Assembly: GCF_003855095.1 (NCBI RefSeq)
Contig: NZ_CP033972.1
Coordinates: 2,356,001-2,420,000 of the forward strand
Length of the DNA stretch: 64,000 nt
Origin: Gordonia insulae
GTDB taxonomy: Bacteria; Actinomycetota; Actinomycetes; Mycobacteriales; Mycobacteriaceae
Direction: 5' to 3'
A program made the position numbers and the translations under genes. Shown one piece after another: positions 3,940 to 21,059 of the stretch. Position 1 is the first letter of the stretch. Every line of letters starts with the position of its first letter. The notes under the pieces are model-generated. The model saw only the letters and a list, made by a program, of their open reading frames with translations, made no database searches and was not told the DNA's origin.

Positions 3940-5713
3940 GAACCTGAGCCTCTCTTCCTAGATATGCTTCCGCAACTGTTCGATTTGACCGGATCTCCGC
4001 CGGGGACCCGGACGCTATGAGCTCACCGAAGTTCAGTACGTGAACCTCGTCGCAGATACTCAGGACCAGATCCATGTCGTGATCGACCATCAGAATCGTC
4101 ACCCCACTCTCACAGATTCTTCGCAGTCGTTCTCCGAGCCAACGGCTCTCAGTGCTGTCGAGGCCACCTGCCGGCTCGTCCAGCAGCAACAGATTGGGTG
4201 AGCCGGCCAGAGCCCGTGCGATCGATACCAGCTGACGCTGTCCTTGTGACAGTTCGCCGGCTGGGCGCTCACTGATCTCAGTGATACCCAGGAGTTCGAA
4301 TACCTCAGTGAGGTGGCCGATATCGGTGTGTTCGGTCTTGACGTCGGGACGATGCACTGCGGCCGTTCGGCCCACCTTGACGTTCTCTGTCACGCTGAGA
4401 TCGTCGTACAGCTCGATCGCCTGAAAGGTACGGCCGAGGCCCGCACGAATCCGATTGTGCGGGGCGAGCCCGCCCATGGACGACCCCGACAGTGTGACGT
4501 CGCCGGTGTAGTCGGCAAATCCGGTGATGGCATCCATGAGTGTAGTCTTTCCGGCACCGTTCGGACCGATGAGGCCTACCAGCGCACCCTTCGGAACGTC
4601 TAGCGATACGTCCGACAGCGCAACCGCACCACCATACTTCACCGACACATCGGTGAGAATCAGCTCGGACTGCCCCGTCCGATCGAGAACCCGCGGCTGG
4701 GCCGGAAGCTCCTCGGTGGGTATGGCATCCGTGGCATGCGCATCCGGAGAGGCCTTGGCCTTGTCCCGCAGCGCTGCGGCCCGGCGGTTCGCCAACACAC
4801 TGTGTGCCGGGCCCACGATGCCCTCGGGGTTGAGGATCACAGTGAAGATCAGCAGGACGCTGGATACCACGACATACCAACCACTCACCGACCACAGTTC
4901 GTCGACGAAGATGAATATCAGCCCGTTAGCAGCGGAGACCCCCGCCAGGATGCCGCCGGCAACCGAGGTGATACCGGCCAGGTAGACCGTGGCGAAGAGC
5001 GCAACGCCGGCCATCGCCGAGTACGAGTCGAATGTCACGGTCTGCTGTTGGTAGGCCAGCAATGAGCCGCCGATGCCGGCGATGAACGCACCAATCGCGA
5101 AAGCCAGAATCTTGACCCGGACGACACTCACACCGGCTGCGGCAGCGGATCTCTCGTTTGCCCGGACGGCCAGCATCTCGGTCCCGAGTCGACTGCGCCG
5201 TAGCAGCGCGACCGAGACAGCGACCGCAACCAACACCAGTAGCACCAGCACACCGAACGTCACCCGCGGATACTCCAGGCCCTGACCAATGCTCAGGTCC
5301 CATCCGAACAGGCTGGGTTTCGGCGCCTCGACGCCACTGGTGCCGACGATATCGCCGTTGCGGAACCAGATCGCTTCGACCGCAAACGCCATTGCCAGCG
5401 TCACCACCGCGACTGTGAGACCTCGAATCCTCAGGGCCGGAAGTCCAATCACAACGCCGAGCGCTGCCGCGCAGATCGCAGCCACAAGCGGAGCGATCGG
5501 GAACGGAAGATGGAAGGTGTTGGCGATGGGTCCGAGCAGGAAGCCCGCGACTCCGGCGATCGTCAACTGGGCCAGCGATACCTGACCGGCGTACCCGGTG
5601 ACCACGACGGAAGACAACGCGATGATGGCCATGATGAAGCTGACGATCAGCCCCGTGCGCATGCGGTCGTCGAGCAGGAACAGAGCCACGATGCCGACGA
5701 TCGTCATCACCAC
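3932..5713 (-). CDS. Fused permease/ATP-binding protein of ABC importer (LivM-LivG)
   Basis: One polypeptide of about 590 residues carries both the second permease and the first ATPase of the importer. Residues 1 to about 310 are a LivM-type membrane domain with many hydrophobic helices and the GLPALRIRGLTVAVVTLAMA region. After a charged linker, residues 350-590 form a LivG-type ATPase with Walker A GPNGAGKTT, signature LSQGQRQ and Walker B LLLLDEPAGGLD. The fusion is common in actinobacteria. A GTG at 5713 and an ATG at 5707 are both possible starts; the ATG overlaps the livH stop as TGATG, a typical coupled junction, and is the more likely one. Confidence 0.88.
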   Translation of the reverse strand: MVMTIVGIVALFLLDDRMRTGLIVSFIMAIIALSSVVVTGYAGQVSLAQLTIAGVAGFLLGPIANTFHLPFPIAPLVAAICAAALGVVIGLPALRIRGLTVAVVTLAMAFAVEAIWFRNGDIVGTSGVEAPKPSLFGWDLSIGQGLEYPRVTFGVLVLLVLVAVAVSVALLRRSRLGTEMLAVRANERSAAAAGVSVVRVKILAFAIGAFIAGIGGSLLAYQQQTVTFDSYSAMAGVALFATVYLAGITSVAGGILAGVSAANGLIFIFVDELWSVSGWYVVVSSVLLIFTVILNPEGIVGPAHSVLANRRAAALRDKAKASPDAHATDAIPTEELPAQPRVLDRTGQSELILTDVSVKYGGAVALSDVSLDVPKGALVGLIGPNGAGKTTLMDAITGFADYTGDVTLSGSSMGGLAPHNRIRAGLGRTFQAIELYDDLSVTENVKVGRTAAVHRPDVKTEHTDIGHLTEVFELLGITEISERPAGELSQGQRQLVSIARALAGSPNLLLLDEPAGGLDSTESRWLGERLRRICESGVTILMVDHDMDLVLSICDEVHVLNFGELIASGSPAEIRSNRTVAEAYLGREAQVHG

Positions 5714-17298: not shown

Positions 17299-17883
17299 TC
17301 AGCGCTGTGCGCGGTCGGCCAGACGCTGTCGCCGTGGCATCGGCGCCCGGCGCGCACACAGCCAGGCACACCCGGCCACCCACACGGCACCGATCAACCA
17401 TCCCGCCAGCACGTCGGTGGTCCAGTGCACACCCAGATACACCCGAGTGCACCCGATCGCAATGGCCCCGGCGGGCGCGAGCAGCAGCACGATCGGGTGG
17501 GCGCGCACCCACGCACTCAGCCGGAAGGCCGCCACGGCCAGCAACCCGAACACGATCGTGCTCATCATCGCGTGGCCCGACGGAAACGAGTAGGTGTCGA
17601 TGTCGAGCAGGCGGTCGACCGTCGGCGGGCGCGGTCGTGCGAACAGGTGCTTGAGACCCACCATGAGCAGGTATCCGACCAGCGAGCCTGCCCCCACCAG
17701 AATCGCCTCGGGGTAGGCGCGGTACACGGCGAGTCCGATGCAGACCATCACCACGATCGTCGAGAGCACGAGCGTGTTGCCGGTTGCCGTGATGACCAGC
17801 GCGAGATCGGTGAGCAGACCCGTGCGGCCGTCGACCACGGTGTCGGTGATCGCGCGGTCGAAGCCGTTCGGACTCAGAAACAT
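17299..17883 (-). CDS. PAP2-family membrane phosphatase
   Basis: This 194-residue integral membrane protein removes phosphate from a lipid or polyprenyl phosphate at the membrane. All three PAP2 motifs are present: K-x6-RP at residues 78-86, PSGH at 101-104 and TR-x5-H-x3-D at 146-157, with Cys145-Thr146 before the Arg where Ser is common. Five or six hydrophobic helices separate them. It is divergent from the MMPL gene and shares the gap that carries the CAAG repeat array, so it might be co-regulated with it. Confidence 0.87.
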   Translation of the reverse strand: MFLSPNGFDRAITDTVVDGRTGLLTDLALVITATGNTLVLSTIVVMVCIGLAVYRAYPEAILVGAGSLVGYLLMVGLKHLFARPRPPTVDRLLDIDTYSFPSGHAMMSTIVFGLLAVAAFRLSAWVRAHPIVLLLAPAGAIAIGCTRVYLGVHWTTDVLAGWLIGAVWVAGCAWLCARRAPMPRRQRLADRAQR

Positions 17884-17921: not shown

Positions 17922-17954
17922 CAAGTCACCGCCAAGCGATCCGCAAGTCACGGA
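17922..17954. promoter_or_regulatory. Three 11-bp CAAG direct repeats before the MMPL gene
   Basis: CAAG begins at 17922, 17933 and 17944, giving CAAGTCACCGC, CAAGCGATCCG and CAAGTCACGGA in exact 11-bp register. One-turn direct repeats are the classic layout for tandem OmpR/PhoB-family response regulators. The array ends 40 bases before the MMPL start. A matching array lies before the hemerythrin gene. Confidence 0.6.
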
Positions 17955-17994
17955 TTCCACCCTAGCCGTGACATCCCGACCGGAAGGACGACTC

Positions 17995-20163
17995 ATGCAC
18001 ACCACCCTGCTGTATCGGATCGGGCACGCCGCCGCGGCGCATCCGATCCGTGCTCTGCTCGGCTTCGCCGCCGCGCTGGCCGTCCTCCTGGCCGCTTCGT
18101 CGGCGTTCGGCGGCGAGACCCAGGAGAACTGGGACGTCACCGGCACGCCGTCGCAGGCCGGGATCGAACTCCTGCGCGAGCATGTGCCGGGTGCCGGAAA
18201 CGCGTTCGCGCGCATCGTCGTGCACGCCGACGACGGCACCATCCCGGCATCGGCGATCAGCGGACTGCGCGACCGCCTCGGCGACATGGATCACGTGGCC
18301 ACCGTCACCGACGCTCGGTTCAGCGCCGACCGCGACACCGCGGTCCTCACGGTCGGCTACGACGTCCCGGTCACCGATCGCTCCATCATGGGCAACGCGG
18401 ACGGACTGACCGCGGCGATCACCCCCACCCGCGATGCCGGCCTGCGAGTCGAGATGAACGGATCGGTCCCCGAGACCGCTGCGGCGCCGATCAAGGGCCA
18501 CGCCGAGGTCATCGGCATCGCGCTGGCCCTGTTGATCATGGTGTTCGCCTTCGGCTCGGTGATAGCCGCCGGTTTGCCGATCGCCACCGCGATCGCCGGA
18601 CTGATCGCCGGCTCGGCCGGCATCACCCTGCTCGCCGGGATCATCAACGTCAGTCCGACGGCACCCATGGTCGCGAGCATGGTCGGCCTCGGCGTCGGGA
18701 TCGACTACGCGCTGCTGGTGGTCAGCCGGCATGTCGAGTTCCTGCGGCGGGGTCACACCCCGGTCGAGGCGGCCGCCCGGGCCGTCGCCACCGCGGGACG
18801 CTCCGCGGTGTTCGCCGCGACCACCGTGCTGGTCTCACTGATGGGATTGCGACTCGCCGGACTACCCACCTACTCGTCGTTCGGCTTCGCGACCGCGATC
18901 GCGGTGATCGCGATGCTCGGCGCCACCCTCGTCGTGGTGCCCGCGCTGTGTCGGGTCTCCGGTCGCCGGATCGTGCCGCGCACGGCACGGCGCGCGATGA
19001 TCACCGAGAACACCGATCGCATGCCCCTCACCGCACGGTGGGCCGGAAGGGTCGGCCGGCGACCGGTCGTCGCGGTCCTGCTCGCGCTGATCGTGATGGT
19101 CACCCTCGCCGCTCCGGCCGTCGCCATGCGGACCTGGCCGTCGGATTCGGGTGCACAGTCGAGCGAACTGACCACCCGCCGTGCGCACGACCTGCTGGCC
19201 GCCGAGTTCGGTGCGGGCACCAACGCCGACGTCGTCGTGGTCGCCCCGACGCAGGGTGTCGACCGGGACGAACTGTCGGCGGCCATGACCGCCGTCGCGC
19301 AGATTCCCGGGGTGACCGCGGTCGCACCGATCACCGAATCACCGGACCGCGCACTCGACATCGTGCCGATCACCATCGGTCACGACCCGGCGGACGCGGC
19401 CACCGGCGACGTCCTCGACGGCATTCGCGACCGCATCCCCGACGGCGCCATCCTCGCCGGTGAGACCGCGTACTACGACGACATCTCGCAGATGCTGCAA
19501 CGCAGGCTGTGGCTGGTGATCGGCTTCGTCGTCGCCGCGTCGGTCGTCCTGCTCACCGTCCTGTTCCGATCGGTCGTCGTCCCGATCAAGGCCGCCGCCA
19601 TGAACCTCCTGTCCGTCGCAGCCGCGTACGGGGTGATCACCGCGGTGTTCCAGTGGGGTTGGGGCCTGTCGCTGCTGGGTGTCGACCATCCGATCGCGGT
19701 GTCGAGTTGGGTACCGATCCTCGTCTTCGCGATCCTGTTCGGCCTGTCGATGGACTACGAGGTCTTCCTGCTGTCCCGCATCCGCGAGGACTGGCTGGCG
19801 TCCGGGGACGCGCGCGCCAGCGTGATCAGCGGACTCGCCAAGACGGGCCGGGTCATCACCACCGCCGCGGCGATCATGGTCGCCGTGTTCCTGAGCTTTG
19901 CCACCGAGACCGACATCCTGATGAAGATGCTGGGTCTGGGGATGGCGGTGGCGGTCTTCCTCGACGCCACGCTGGTGCGGATGGTCCTCGTACCGGCAAC
20001 GATGTCGCTGCTCGGGCGTGCCAACTGGTGGCTCCCGACCTGGCTGGACCGCATGCTGCCGCACATCGGACTCGAGACGGCAGACGACGACTCCGGCATA
20101 CCGGCCGCGCCCGGCGAAGACTCCCCCGACGTCGAGCCGGACAGAAAACTCACGCCCGCCTGA
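17995..20163 (+). CDS. MMPL-family RND transporter
   Basis: This 722-residue protein is a secondary exporter of the MMPL type, usually moving lipids or drugs. It has an N-terminal helix, an extracytoplasmic loop, a membrane bundle with GVGIDYALLVVSRHVEF, a second loop and a second bundle with LSMDYEVFLLSRIREDW. These two D-Y pairs carry the proton relay. The ATG at 17995 follows GGAAGGA; a longer in-frame stretch upstream overlaps the PAP2 gene antisense and is not coding. The substrate is unknown. The CAAG repeat array upstream suggests control by a response regulator together with the hemerythrin gene. Confidence 0.88.
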   Translation: MHTTLLYRIGHAAAAHPIRALLGFAAALAVLLAASSAFGGETQENWDVTGTPSQAGIELLREHVPGAGNAFARIVVHADDGTIPASAISGLRDRLGDMDHVATVTDARFSADRDTAVLTVGYDVPVTDRSIMGNADGLTAAITPTRDAGLRVEMNGSVPETAAAPIKGHAEVIGIALALLIMVFAFGSVIAAGLPIATAIAGLIAGSAGITLLAGIINVSPTAPMVASMVGLGVGIDYALLVVSRHVEFLRRGHTPVEAAARAVATAGRSAVFAATTVLVSLMGLRLAGLPTYSSFGFATAIAVIAMLGATLVVVPALCRVSGRRIVPRTARRAMITENTDRMPLTARWAGRVGRRPVVAVLLALIVMVTLAAPAVAMRTWPSDSGAQSSELTTRRAHDLLAAEFGAGTNADVVVVAPTQGVDRDELSAAMTAVAQIPGVTAVAPITESPDRALDIVPITIGHDPADAATGDVLDGIRDRIPDGAILAGETAYYDDISQMLQRRLWLVIGFVVAASVVLLTVLFRSVVVPIKAAAMNLLSVAAAYGVITAVFQWGWGLSLLGVDHPIAVSSWVPILVFAILFGLSMDYEVFLLSRIREDWLASGDARASVISGLAKTGRVITTAAAIMVAVFLSFATETDILMKMLGLGMAVAVFLDATLVRMVLVPATMSLLGRANWWLPTWLDRMLPHIGLETADDDSGIPAAPGEDSPDVEPDRKLTPA

Positions 20164-20169
20164 CGCGCA

Positions 20170-20202
20170 CAAGTGCGCTCCAAGTGAGGCCCAAGCGCCA
20201 TG
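20170..20202. promoter_or_regulatory. Three 11-bp CAAG direct repeats before the hemerythrin gene
   Basis: CAAG starts at 20170, 20181 and 20192 (CAAGTGCGCTC, CAAGTGAGGCC, CAAGCGCCATG), again exactly 11 bp apart. The array lies just after the MMPL stop and 62 bases before the next start. GAATCT at 20205-20210 could be a -10 box. The likeness to the array at 17922 points to one regulator. Confidence 0.6.
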
Positions 20203-20264
20203 TCCGAATCTGTTGAGGCCCCGAACACGACGGGGACAGCCCACCCGAACCGAGGAATCCCGAG

Positions 20265-21059
20265 ATGACCACCACGCACACCGCCGACACCGACCCCACC
20301 CCCGCGTCCGCCCTCCGTGGCTCGCACGCCCGCATCCCCGAGACCGGTGAACCGACCGTCGACCAGCTCCGGCTGCCCGGCCAGGCCGCGGCCCCCGACG
20401 GCCCGCTCGACCCGTTCATGATGTACCTCGCCCACCACGGTTTCCGGCGCGACCTCGCGGAGTTCGCCGAGGCGGTTCCGCACACGCCCGTCCCCGACCA
20501 CACCACCTGGCGCGCGCTGCAGGCACGCTGGTCGGTGTTCCGGGAGATCCTCCACCACCATCATGCGGGTGAGGACGCGTGGATCTGGCCCATGCTGGAG
20601 AGCCGCTGCACCTCCGCCGAGCGGGCCGTACTCGACGCGATGGAAGCCGAGCACGGGATGATCGACCCGCTGCTCGAGGCCTGCGACGCGGGATTCGCGA
20701 CGATGGCCGCCGGTGCCGACGCCGATGCGCGTGCCGAGCTGTCACGTGTGCTGGCCGAGACCCACGACCACCTCGCCGCACATCTCGCGCACGAGGAGAA
20801 CGACGCGCTGACGCTGATCCAGCAGCACCTGACCGTCGACGAGTGGACGGAGCTGGAGGAGAAGTTCGGCGAGGACTCGTCCCTCAGAGATGCTCTGCGC
20901 CTGGCTCCCTGGATGCTCAAGGGACTCGACGACGACACCCTCGGCATTCTCCGGCCGCGCATTCCGCGGCCCCTGTGGCTGTTCGCAAAGCTCGGCTCAC
21001 GGTCGTTCCGCCGAGCCGATCGTCGCGCATTCCGCTATCACCCCGACGCCACGCACTGA
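20265..21059 (+). CDS. Hemerythrin HHE-domain protein
   Basis: This 264-residue helical protein carries the hemerythrin-type di-iron site ligands: HHHHAGEDAWIWP near residue 100, EHGMIDPLL near 128 and HLAAHLAHEENDAL near 170. HHE proteins bind O2, NO or store iron; in mycobacteria they have been tied to redox and NO responses. A C-terminal segment with LWLFAKLGSRSFRRADRRAF is basic and not part of the iron site. GAATCCCGAG-type sequence precedes the ATG. It shares an 11-bp CAAG array with the MMPL gene upstream and may be cotranscribed or separately activated. Confidence 0.85.
   Translation: MTTTHTADTDPTPASALRGSHARIPETGEPTVDQLRLPGQAAAPDGPLDPFMMYLAHHGFRRDLAEFAEAVPHTPVPDHTTWRALQARWSVFREILHHHHAGEDAWIWPMLESRCTSAERAVLDAMEAEHGMIDPLLEACDAGFATMAAGADADARAELSRVLAETHDHLAAHLAHEENDALTLIQQHLTVDEWTELEEKFGEDSSLRDALRLAPWMLKGLDDDTLGILRPRIPRPLWLFAKLGSRSFRRADRRAFRYHPDATH

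Follow-up and report, generated by a model that had tools for sequence, protein, structure and literature searches.

Upstream of two neighbouring genes of Gordonia insulae, one encoding an MMPL family transporter and the other a hemerythrin HHE-domain protein, three CAAG units lie in exact 11-bp register, and this raises the question of what reads such arrays. Both are contained in the window, the 64,000-nucleotide stretch analysed here (C1:2356001-2420000, C1 being the single 5.96-Mb contig of this genome). A sequence-only reading of the locus had ascribed them to a response regulator of the OmpR/PhoB family belonging to a distant two-component system. Our results led us to propose that they are very probably operator-promoters of SARP-family (AfsR/PimR-like) activators, a proposal built on sequence comparisons across the genus and the family.

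Triple-CAAG arrays and their -10 hexamer

A search of the window for CAAG-N7-CAAG-N7-CAAG returned two exact matches and no others, both on the + strand. Array 1 (17922-17947, units at 17922, 17933 and 17944) precedes the gene of the 722-aa MMPL transporter (17995-20163, + strand; Pfam PF03176, 4.2e-62), and array 2 (20170-20195, units at 20170, 20181 and 20192) lies between the stop codon of that gene and the gene of the 264-aa hemerythrin (20265-21059, + strand; PF01814, 3.3e-14). These arrays, here the predicted SARP operators of the two genes, matched exactly at both places where they had been described. The earlier notation of the units as CAAGT or CAAGC held for the first two units in all five exact arrays of the genome, whereas the base after the third unit was free (A twice). 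From the frequency of CAAG, 0.0017 such triplets are expected per 64 kb, and 100 dinucleotide shuffles of the window yielded none.

The sequence-only reading overlooked the other half of each array, a hexamer placed 10 nt after the third CAAG: CACCCT at 17958-17963 for array 1, which recurs in the MMPL arrays of other species, and GAATCT at 20206-20211 for array 2, both on the + strand. Taken as -10 elements, they predict transcription starts at about 17970 and 20218. Also absent from that reading were the three other arrays of this genome and a SARP gene adjoining one of them.

With genes delimited from their open reading frames and nucleotide composition, the whole genome showed five exact arrays, all of them intergenic, on the coding strand and before a start codon, and none inside a gene. 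The downstream genes encode a FAD/BBE-type oxidase, the MMPL transporter, the hemerythrin, a 178-aa protein for which no Pfam family was matched, and a lipoprotein of the LppU/SCO3897 family, with 85, 47, 69, 22 and 49 nt, respectively, from the third CAAG to the preferred ATG (the automatic start pick chose instead a GTG at 20 nt for the MMPL gene and at 16 nt for the 178-aa protein). The array of the FAD oxidase lies between this gene and a SARP gene, SARP-F, just behind the latter, which encodes 1054 aa. The link proposed earlier between the MMPL exporter and the hemerythrin was supported by a shared array/-10 promoter, as part of a predicted regulon of five exact members. Allowing one mismatch in the CAAGY units added no site in this genome (the reversed control pattern gave 12 matches); with two mismatches the reversed control gave 8 sites versus 7, so that this count alone proves nothing. 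One two-mismatch site, C1:4676160, has no plausible downstream gene and was taken as a chance match. The gene of the 178-aa protein is divergent from that of a copper P-type ATPase, and between them lies the palindrome ATACCCCCTGGGGGTAT (L007:5570-5660; L numbers denote fetched loci), which resembles a CsoR-type operator.

The architecture recurs throughout the genus. Among 118 CAAGY-type arrays aligned from 42 Gordonia genomes, the motif NANNNT starts exactly 10 nt behind the third CAAG in 117, its first base being G in 71 of the 118, C in 42, A in 5 and never T; the only array to depart from this (G052, L130) consists of tandem CAGCAAC repeats and has no -10. In eight targets of the genus, the third CAAG is followed after exactly 22 nt by an ATG that opens a reading frame (at L125 another in-frame ATG, the second, may be the start). 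As the beginning of a leaderless mRNA, this ATG sets the hexamer at -12 to -7, and by the same numbering the second and third CAAG are centred at about -35.5 and -24.5.

As judged from sequence, this geometry agrees with the AfsR/SARP rule. The available part of PMC10936776 describes 11-bp repeats, the 3' one lying 8 bp from the -10, and at afsS a poor -10, CACTGT, of the same NANNNT class as here. There the AfsR repeats, 11 bp apart, are centred at about -35 and -24, as in the arrays: one spans -40 to -30, and the second can be computed, from a 22-bp box centred at -29.5, to span -29 to -19. Direct repeats of SARP promoters are 11 bp (or 22 bp) apart, and here the 11-bp register is exact. The 8-bp distance is reproduced if the heptamer is read as NCAAGNN, a register picked afterwards, the constancy of the 10-nt gap being independent of that choice; and the -10 is poor, with a first base that is never T.

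Distribution of the arrays and their targets

The composite pattern CAAGN7CAAGN7CAAGN10NANNNT was present in 45 of 59 Gordonia genomes (G numbers, G. insulae being G000), at 127 sites, and its reversed control in none of the 59; the arrays are conserved in relatives. Requiring Y after the first CAAG left 42 of the 59, the arrays of G019, G036 and G048 appearing only under the relaxed pattern, where 10 of the 127 have a purine (A or G) at that position. The same 45 genomes have a SARP-F-like match at E<=1e-30, and the remaining 14 have neither. A match of at least 60% identity occurs in 23 of the 45 and only distant relatives in the other 22; 13 loci named as Gordonia have 60-78% identity to SARP-F. 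By chance an identical 45/14 split has a probability of 1/C(59,14)=7.5e-14, a figure that ignores shared ancestry. A SARP gene was found in the fetched locus of 48 of the 118 arrays (49 by tblastn), and an OmpR-type response-regulator gene in that of one, the LppU locus of G. insulae; for six of the 118 one flank is shorter than 3.5 kb, so that neighbouring genes may have been missed. The array and -10 architecture, the position before genes, the conservation and the association with SARP genes, by joint occurrence and by adjacency, were all computed directly.

Clustering of the genes downstream of the 118 arrays, with 10 extra arrays of the relaxed pattern left out, gave FAD oxidase 36 times, LppU-like lipoprotein 24, hemerythrin 23, MMPL 15, MFS 9 and other products 11. 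The automatic pick returned no gene for L050, L094, L114 and L116 and an implausible one for L090 and L111; by hand, L094 reads as LppU lipoprotein-like and L111 as MFS-like, and the counts were kept as computed. Arrays precede MMPL relatives in 15 genomes and hemerythrin relatives in 23, G. insulae included in both. The same fetched locus contains a SARP gene for 35 of the 36 FAD arrays and all nine MFS arrays. Close relatives of the hemerythrin (at least 49% identity) were found in 25 Gordonia genomes, all within the 45 positive for array and SARP: 23 have an exact array, G054 has a one-mismatch array with a -10, and G033 has none, its hemerythrin gene starting about 40 nt behind the stop codon of an MMPL gene that does have one. 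This gene, mostly unlinked to SARPs, agrees with the association between arrays and SARPs.

The PAP2 phosphatase gene divergent from the MMPL gene (17299-17883, - strand; PF01569), which had been considered a possible member of the same response, was judged to lie outside the regulon, because no array faces it (the best candidate in 200 nt has 5/12 mismatches). Elsewhere in the genus, a 38-aa leaderless open reading frame for a small protein (e.g. MHHELLSSPAFQIARRLIVITATCTVILLAAYHPDLLP), conserved in three Gordonia species, stands directly behind the array (L050; L114, + strand, start at 4049; L090, - strand), and the genes ahead of it in L114 and L090 read, by eye, like nirB/nirD. One array of G007 stands before a gene for a Ser/Thr protein kinase (L054:4001-5000; Pkinase 3.9e-31); in the same genome a distant hemerythrin gene is divergent from a SARP gene, with a two-mismatch array between them (L239:4891-4932).

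At the level of the family, a composite made stricter by fixing the Y, V and S positions matched 91 of 401 genomes, against 2 matches of the reversed control in the 401, and in 13 of 31 genera counting Gordonia, that is, in 12 of the 30 others sampled. Loci were fetched from 20 of the 54 array-positive genomes outside the genus. Seven of these 20 combine hemerythrin and SARP genes (L151-L155, L157, L158), and two an MFS and a SARP gene (L156, L159); at L148 the SARP gene accompanies a gene for a membrane protein. Pfam identifies the target at L150 as a hemerythrin, and that at L149 reads similarly. In three other genera the composite stands before a DrrA-type ABC transporter gene (L143-L147, L160): Pfam assigned the targets at L146 and L160 to ABC ATPases whose C-terminus is of DrrA type, and those at L143-L145 and L147 read similarly.

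Candidate regulators and competing explanations

G. insulae has five BTAD proteins, two of which are candidate regulators. SARP-F (C1:1366614-1369778), which adjoins the FAD-oxidase array, matches Trans_reg_C (PF00486, 1.5e-10), BTAD (PF03704, 1.2e-29) and AAA_16 (6.4e-22) and has the P-loop GEPGAGKT; SARP-H (C1:4149613-4152924) matches the same three families (3.9e-10, 8.9e-33 and 1.3e-14). Both thus combine, as large SARPs do, a Trans_reg_C winged helix and BTAD with a STAND/NOD ATPase; no TPR family was among the Pfam matches of either. Two expectations of the sequence-only reading survive in these proteins: tandem sites one helical turn apart for a winged-helix domain of OmpR/PhoB type, and a regulator encoded far from the window. 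The N-terminal part of SARP-F matches the EmbR and AfsR structures, EmbR (PDB 2fez) being the best match among solved structures to its DNA-binding and BTAD part (2.5e-36). That SARP-F is AfsR itself was rejected, as it scored 131.8 bits against a cut-off of 1430 for the NCBIfam AfsR equivalog.

In a tree of SARP N-terminal parts, in which several branches are long and some joins were flagged as unsure, the SARP-F clade has 23 members, each with an array in the same locus, and SARP-H shares a clade (support 99/98) with SARPs near hemerythrin arrays in the genera g21, g22 and g29. In the recognition-helix region, aligned by eye, SARP-F reads QAYISGLR and SARP-H QVHISNLR, and the array-linked SARPs shown follow Q-x-[YH]-[IV]-S-x-L-R except G007_L055 (HAYISGLR); the remaining three SARPs of G. 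insulae differ there. SARPs of the L234 type, which G. insulae also has, are unlikely as array regulators: the 14 array-less genomes hold nine BTAD proteins, and the five listed resemble that class (1060-1117 aa), a resemblance that rests on length and match range. The SARP-F orthologues of G054 (L133) and G041 (L108) read as two pieces in the assemblies. Another SARP of G. insulae (BTAD at C1:5810537-5810971) is divergent from a membrane-protein gene preceded by a variant array, CCAG/CAAG/CCAG with a -10 (C1:5811366-5811407; L230:1501-1542, L233:6367-6408). Across 208 aa the product of this gene is 46% identical to the protein encoded behind the L148 array (genus g27), which is also near a SARP, and the variant may be a second SARP dialect, although two-mismatch sites as a class are no commoner than in the control.

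The regulator of the window arrays is probably SARP-F, SARP-H or both, a conclusion drawn from the distribution of the two types. G003 and G034 have no BTAD protein other than the SARP-F orthologue, and each has three arrays, one of them before hemerythrin; in G008, conversely, hemerythrin and MMPL arrays occur together with a SARP-H-type protein, and a SARP-F orthologue is absent. The code is therefore probably shared by SARPs, and at least two SARP types seem to use it. Within this frame, the MMPL and hemerythrin genes of G. insulae might be served by SARP-H alone, leaving SARP-F to the neighbouring FAD oxidase, which we consider possible, if on balance doubtful. The clade that joins SARP-H to SARPs near hemerythrin arrays favours this division, as does G008, but G003 and G034 have a hemerythrin array that SARP-F, or a protein without BTAD, must serve, because no other BTAD protein is present.

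Several observations weigh against SARP operators in general or against particular assignments. No SARP gene lies in the same fetched locus for any of the 24 LppU arrays, and one does for only one of the 23 hemerythrin arrays of the genus; in 10 of the 20 loci from other genera (L143-L147, L149, L150, L160-L162) the nearest 4 kb or so yielded no match to a SARP, and no array is near SARP-H of G. insulae. The recognition-helix likeness is not exclusive to array-linked SARPs, since QAYVSTLR occurs in G030_L244, whose 11-kb locus contains no array. No SARP-F of at least 60% identity is present in 22 of the 45 array genomes, including G008, G037 and G007, which have FAD, hemerythrin or MMPL arrays, so that other SARPs must read the code there. 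A protein of SARP-H type is present as well in all 10 genomes that combine SARP-F with an MMPL array (G. insulae and four others by the tree, the rest judged from weak matches), and MMPL may therefore belong to SARP-H. The co-occurrence counts ignore phylogeny and come from SARP matching that scored 13 candidates per genome, and part of the co-occurrence is linkage, as the FAD array and SARP-F form one locus. Finally, the CGGCAAG heptamer of the PimR/SanG/PolR subtype was not found in the arrays, which share with it the CAAG core alone, the preceding bases being mostly C; on sequence they are not filed under that subtype.

The explanation offered originally, tandem sites of an OmpR/PhoB-family response regulator under a distant two-component system, now appears very improbable. 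A tandem spacing of 11 bp is typical of OmpR/PhoB proteins too, SARPs have the Trans_reg_C domain in common with them, and an OmpR-type response regulator is encoded about 5 kb from the LppU array of G. insulae. This neighbour is, however, not conserved: in a survey of response regulators confined to the fetched loci, a single one of the 118 has such a gene linked to the sites compared with 48 having a SARP; the presence of arrays tracks SARP matches exactly in the 59 genomes, and Pfam detected no receiver domain in SARP-F or SARP-H. That the arrays are chance or compositional repeats without function has a negligible probability. It could account for the CAGCAAC repeat, one of the 118 arrays of the genus, and the triple pattern without the -10 does match 42 times in the reversed control against 118 in the 59 genomes; but the shuffles, the reversed composite control, the fixed -10 in 117 of 118 arrays and the like promoters of other genera already contradict it.

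If SARPs are indeed the regulators, their monomers would bind the three CAAG units, 11 bp apart, on one face of the helix, and binding would be cooperative. The two promoter-proximal units would occupy the place of the two AfsR repeats and replace a -35 element, and the bound SARPs would activate transcription by recruiting RNA polymerase to the poor -10 (NANNNT, first base not T). The regulon would comprise the five exact members scattered over the chromosome, with the SARP-STAND paralogues SARP-F and SARP-H as candidate activators. Such proteins would be controlled by ATP or a ligand, an intracellular signal presumably being read by the STAND ATPase half. As the targets are exporters, a FAD oxidase and a hemerythrin, we infer a role in detoxification or export, which suggests protection against a toxic or redox-active compound.

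Relation to known regulators and significance

Both the mechanism and the regulator family are already known. SARPs are best known as activators of antibiotic biosynthesis and are usually sought inside antibiotic gene clusters. EmbR ends in a C-terminal FHA domain, unlike SARP-F, which has an AAA_16 ATPase. Response regulators of the OmpR/PhoB type share the winged-helix fold and the one-turn tandem repeats, but they require both a receiver domain and a partner kinase, and none is conserved beside the arrays. In the accessible part of PMC5930380, the Streptomyces SARP-LAL regulators PimR, SanG and PolR resemble our candidates in the fusion of a SARP domain to a large ATP-binding half, and their operators, like the arrays, consist of direct repeats (two or three) built on a CAAG core; the main PimR operator, three CGGCAAG heptamers with 4-bp spacers, likewise has an 11-bp period. 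It differs in that the bases before CAAG are not CGG here, and in that the array here abuts a fixed -10, whereas the PimR operator stays clear of the -35 box. The targets here are scattered export and redox genes and not the regulator of a biosynthetic cluster. AfsR, a global regulator of Streptomyces, is like our candidates a large SARP with a NOD ATPase, but afsS has two repeats of another sequence in place of three CAAG units, and no CAAG array was found in the part of PMC10936776 available to us.

A dispersed, non-biosynthetic SARP regulon in Gordonia and its kin, marked by a triple CAAG with a fixed -10 and linked to hemerythrin, was not found among the papers listed in a literature search whose scope left out most subscription papers, nor was a paper joining SARPs or AfsR to such hemerythrin genes among those listed. 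The one paper retrieved for hemerythrin with AfsR is PMC5069765, and the one listed with hemerythrin and the letters SARP, PMC9822766, is a blood-substitute study.

In summary, a 42-bp signature that can be searched as a pattern suggests that SARPs of Gordonia govern a dispersed regulon and not an antibiotic cluster, and links hemerythrins and MMPL and MFS exporters to SARP-STAND regulators. With start sites predicted, some of them for leaderless mRNAs, the question of the regulator is reduced to two proteins and five promoters, and a set of bacterial hemerythrins gains a predicted activator. More tentatively, mycolic-acid actinobacteria might use SARP-STAND proteins as intracellular sensors of toxic metabolites or antibiotics, which would switch on a dispersed protective regulon of MMPL, MFS and DrrA-type ABC transporters, FAD oxidase, hemerythrin, lipoprotein and tiny leaderless proteins through one strongly conserved triple-CAAG and poor -10 promoter, shared by several SARP clades and handed over between lineages.

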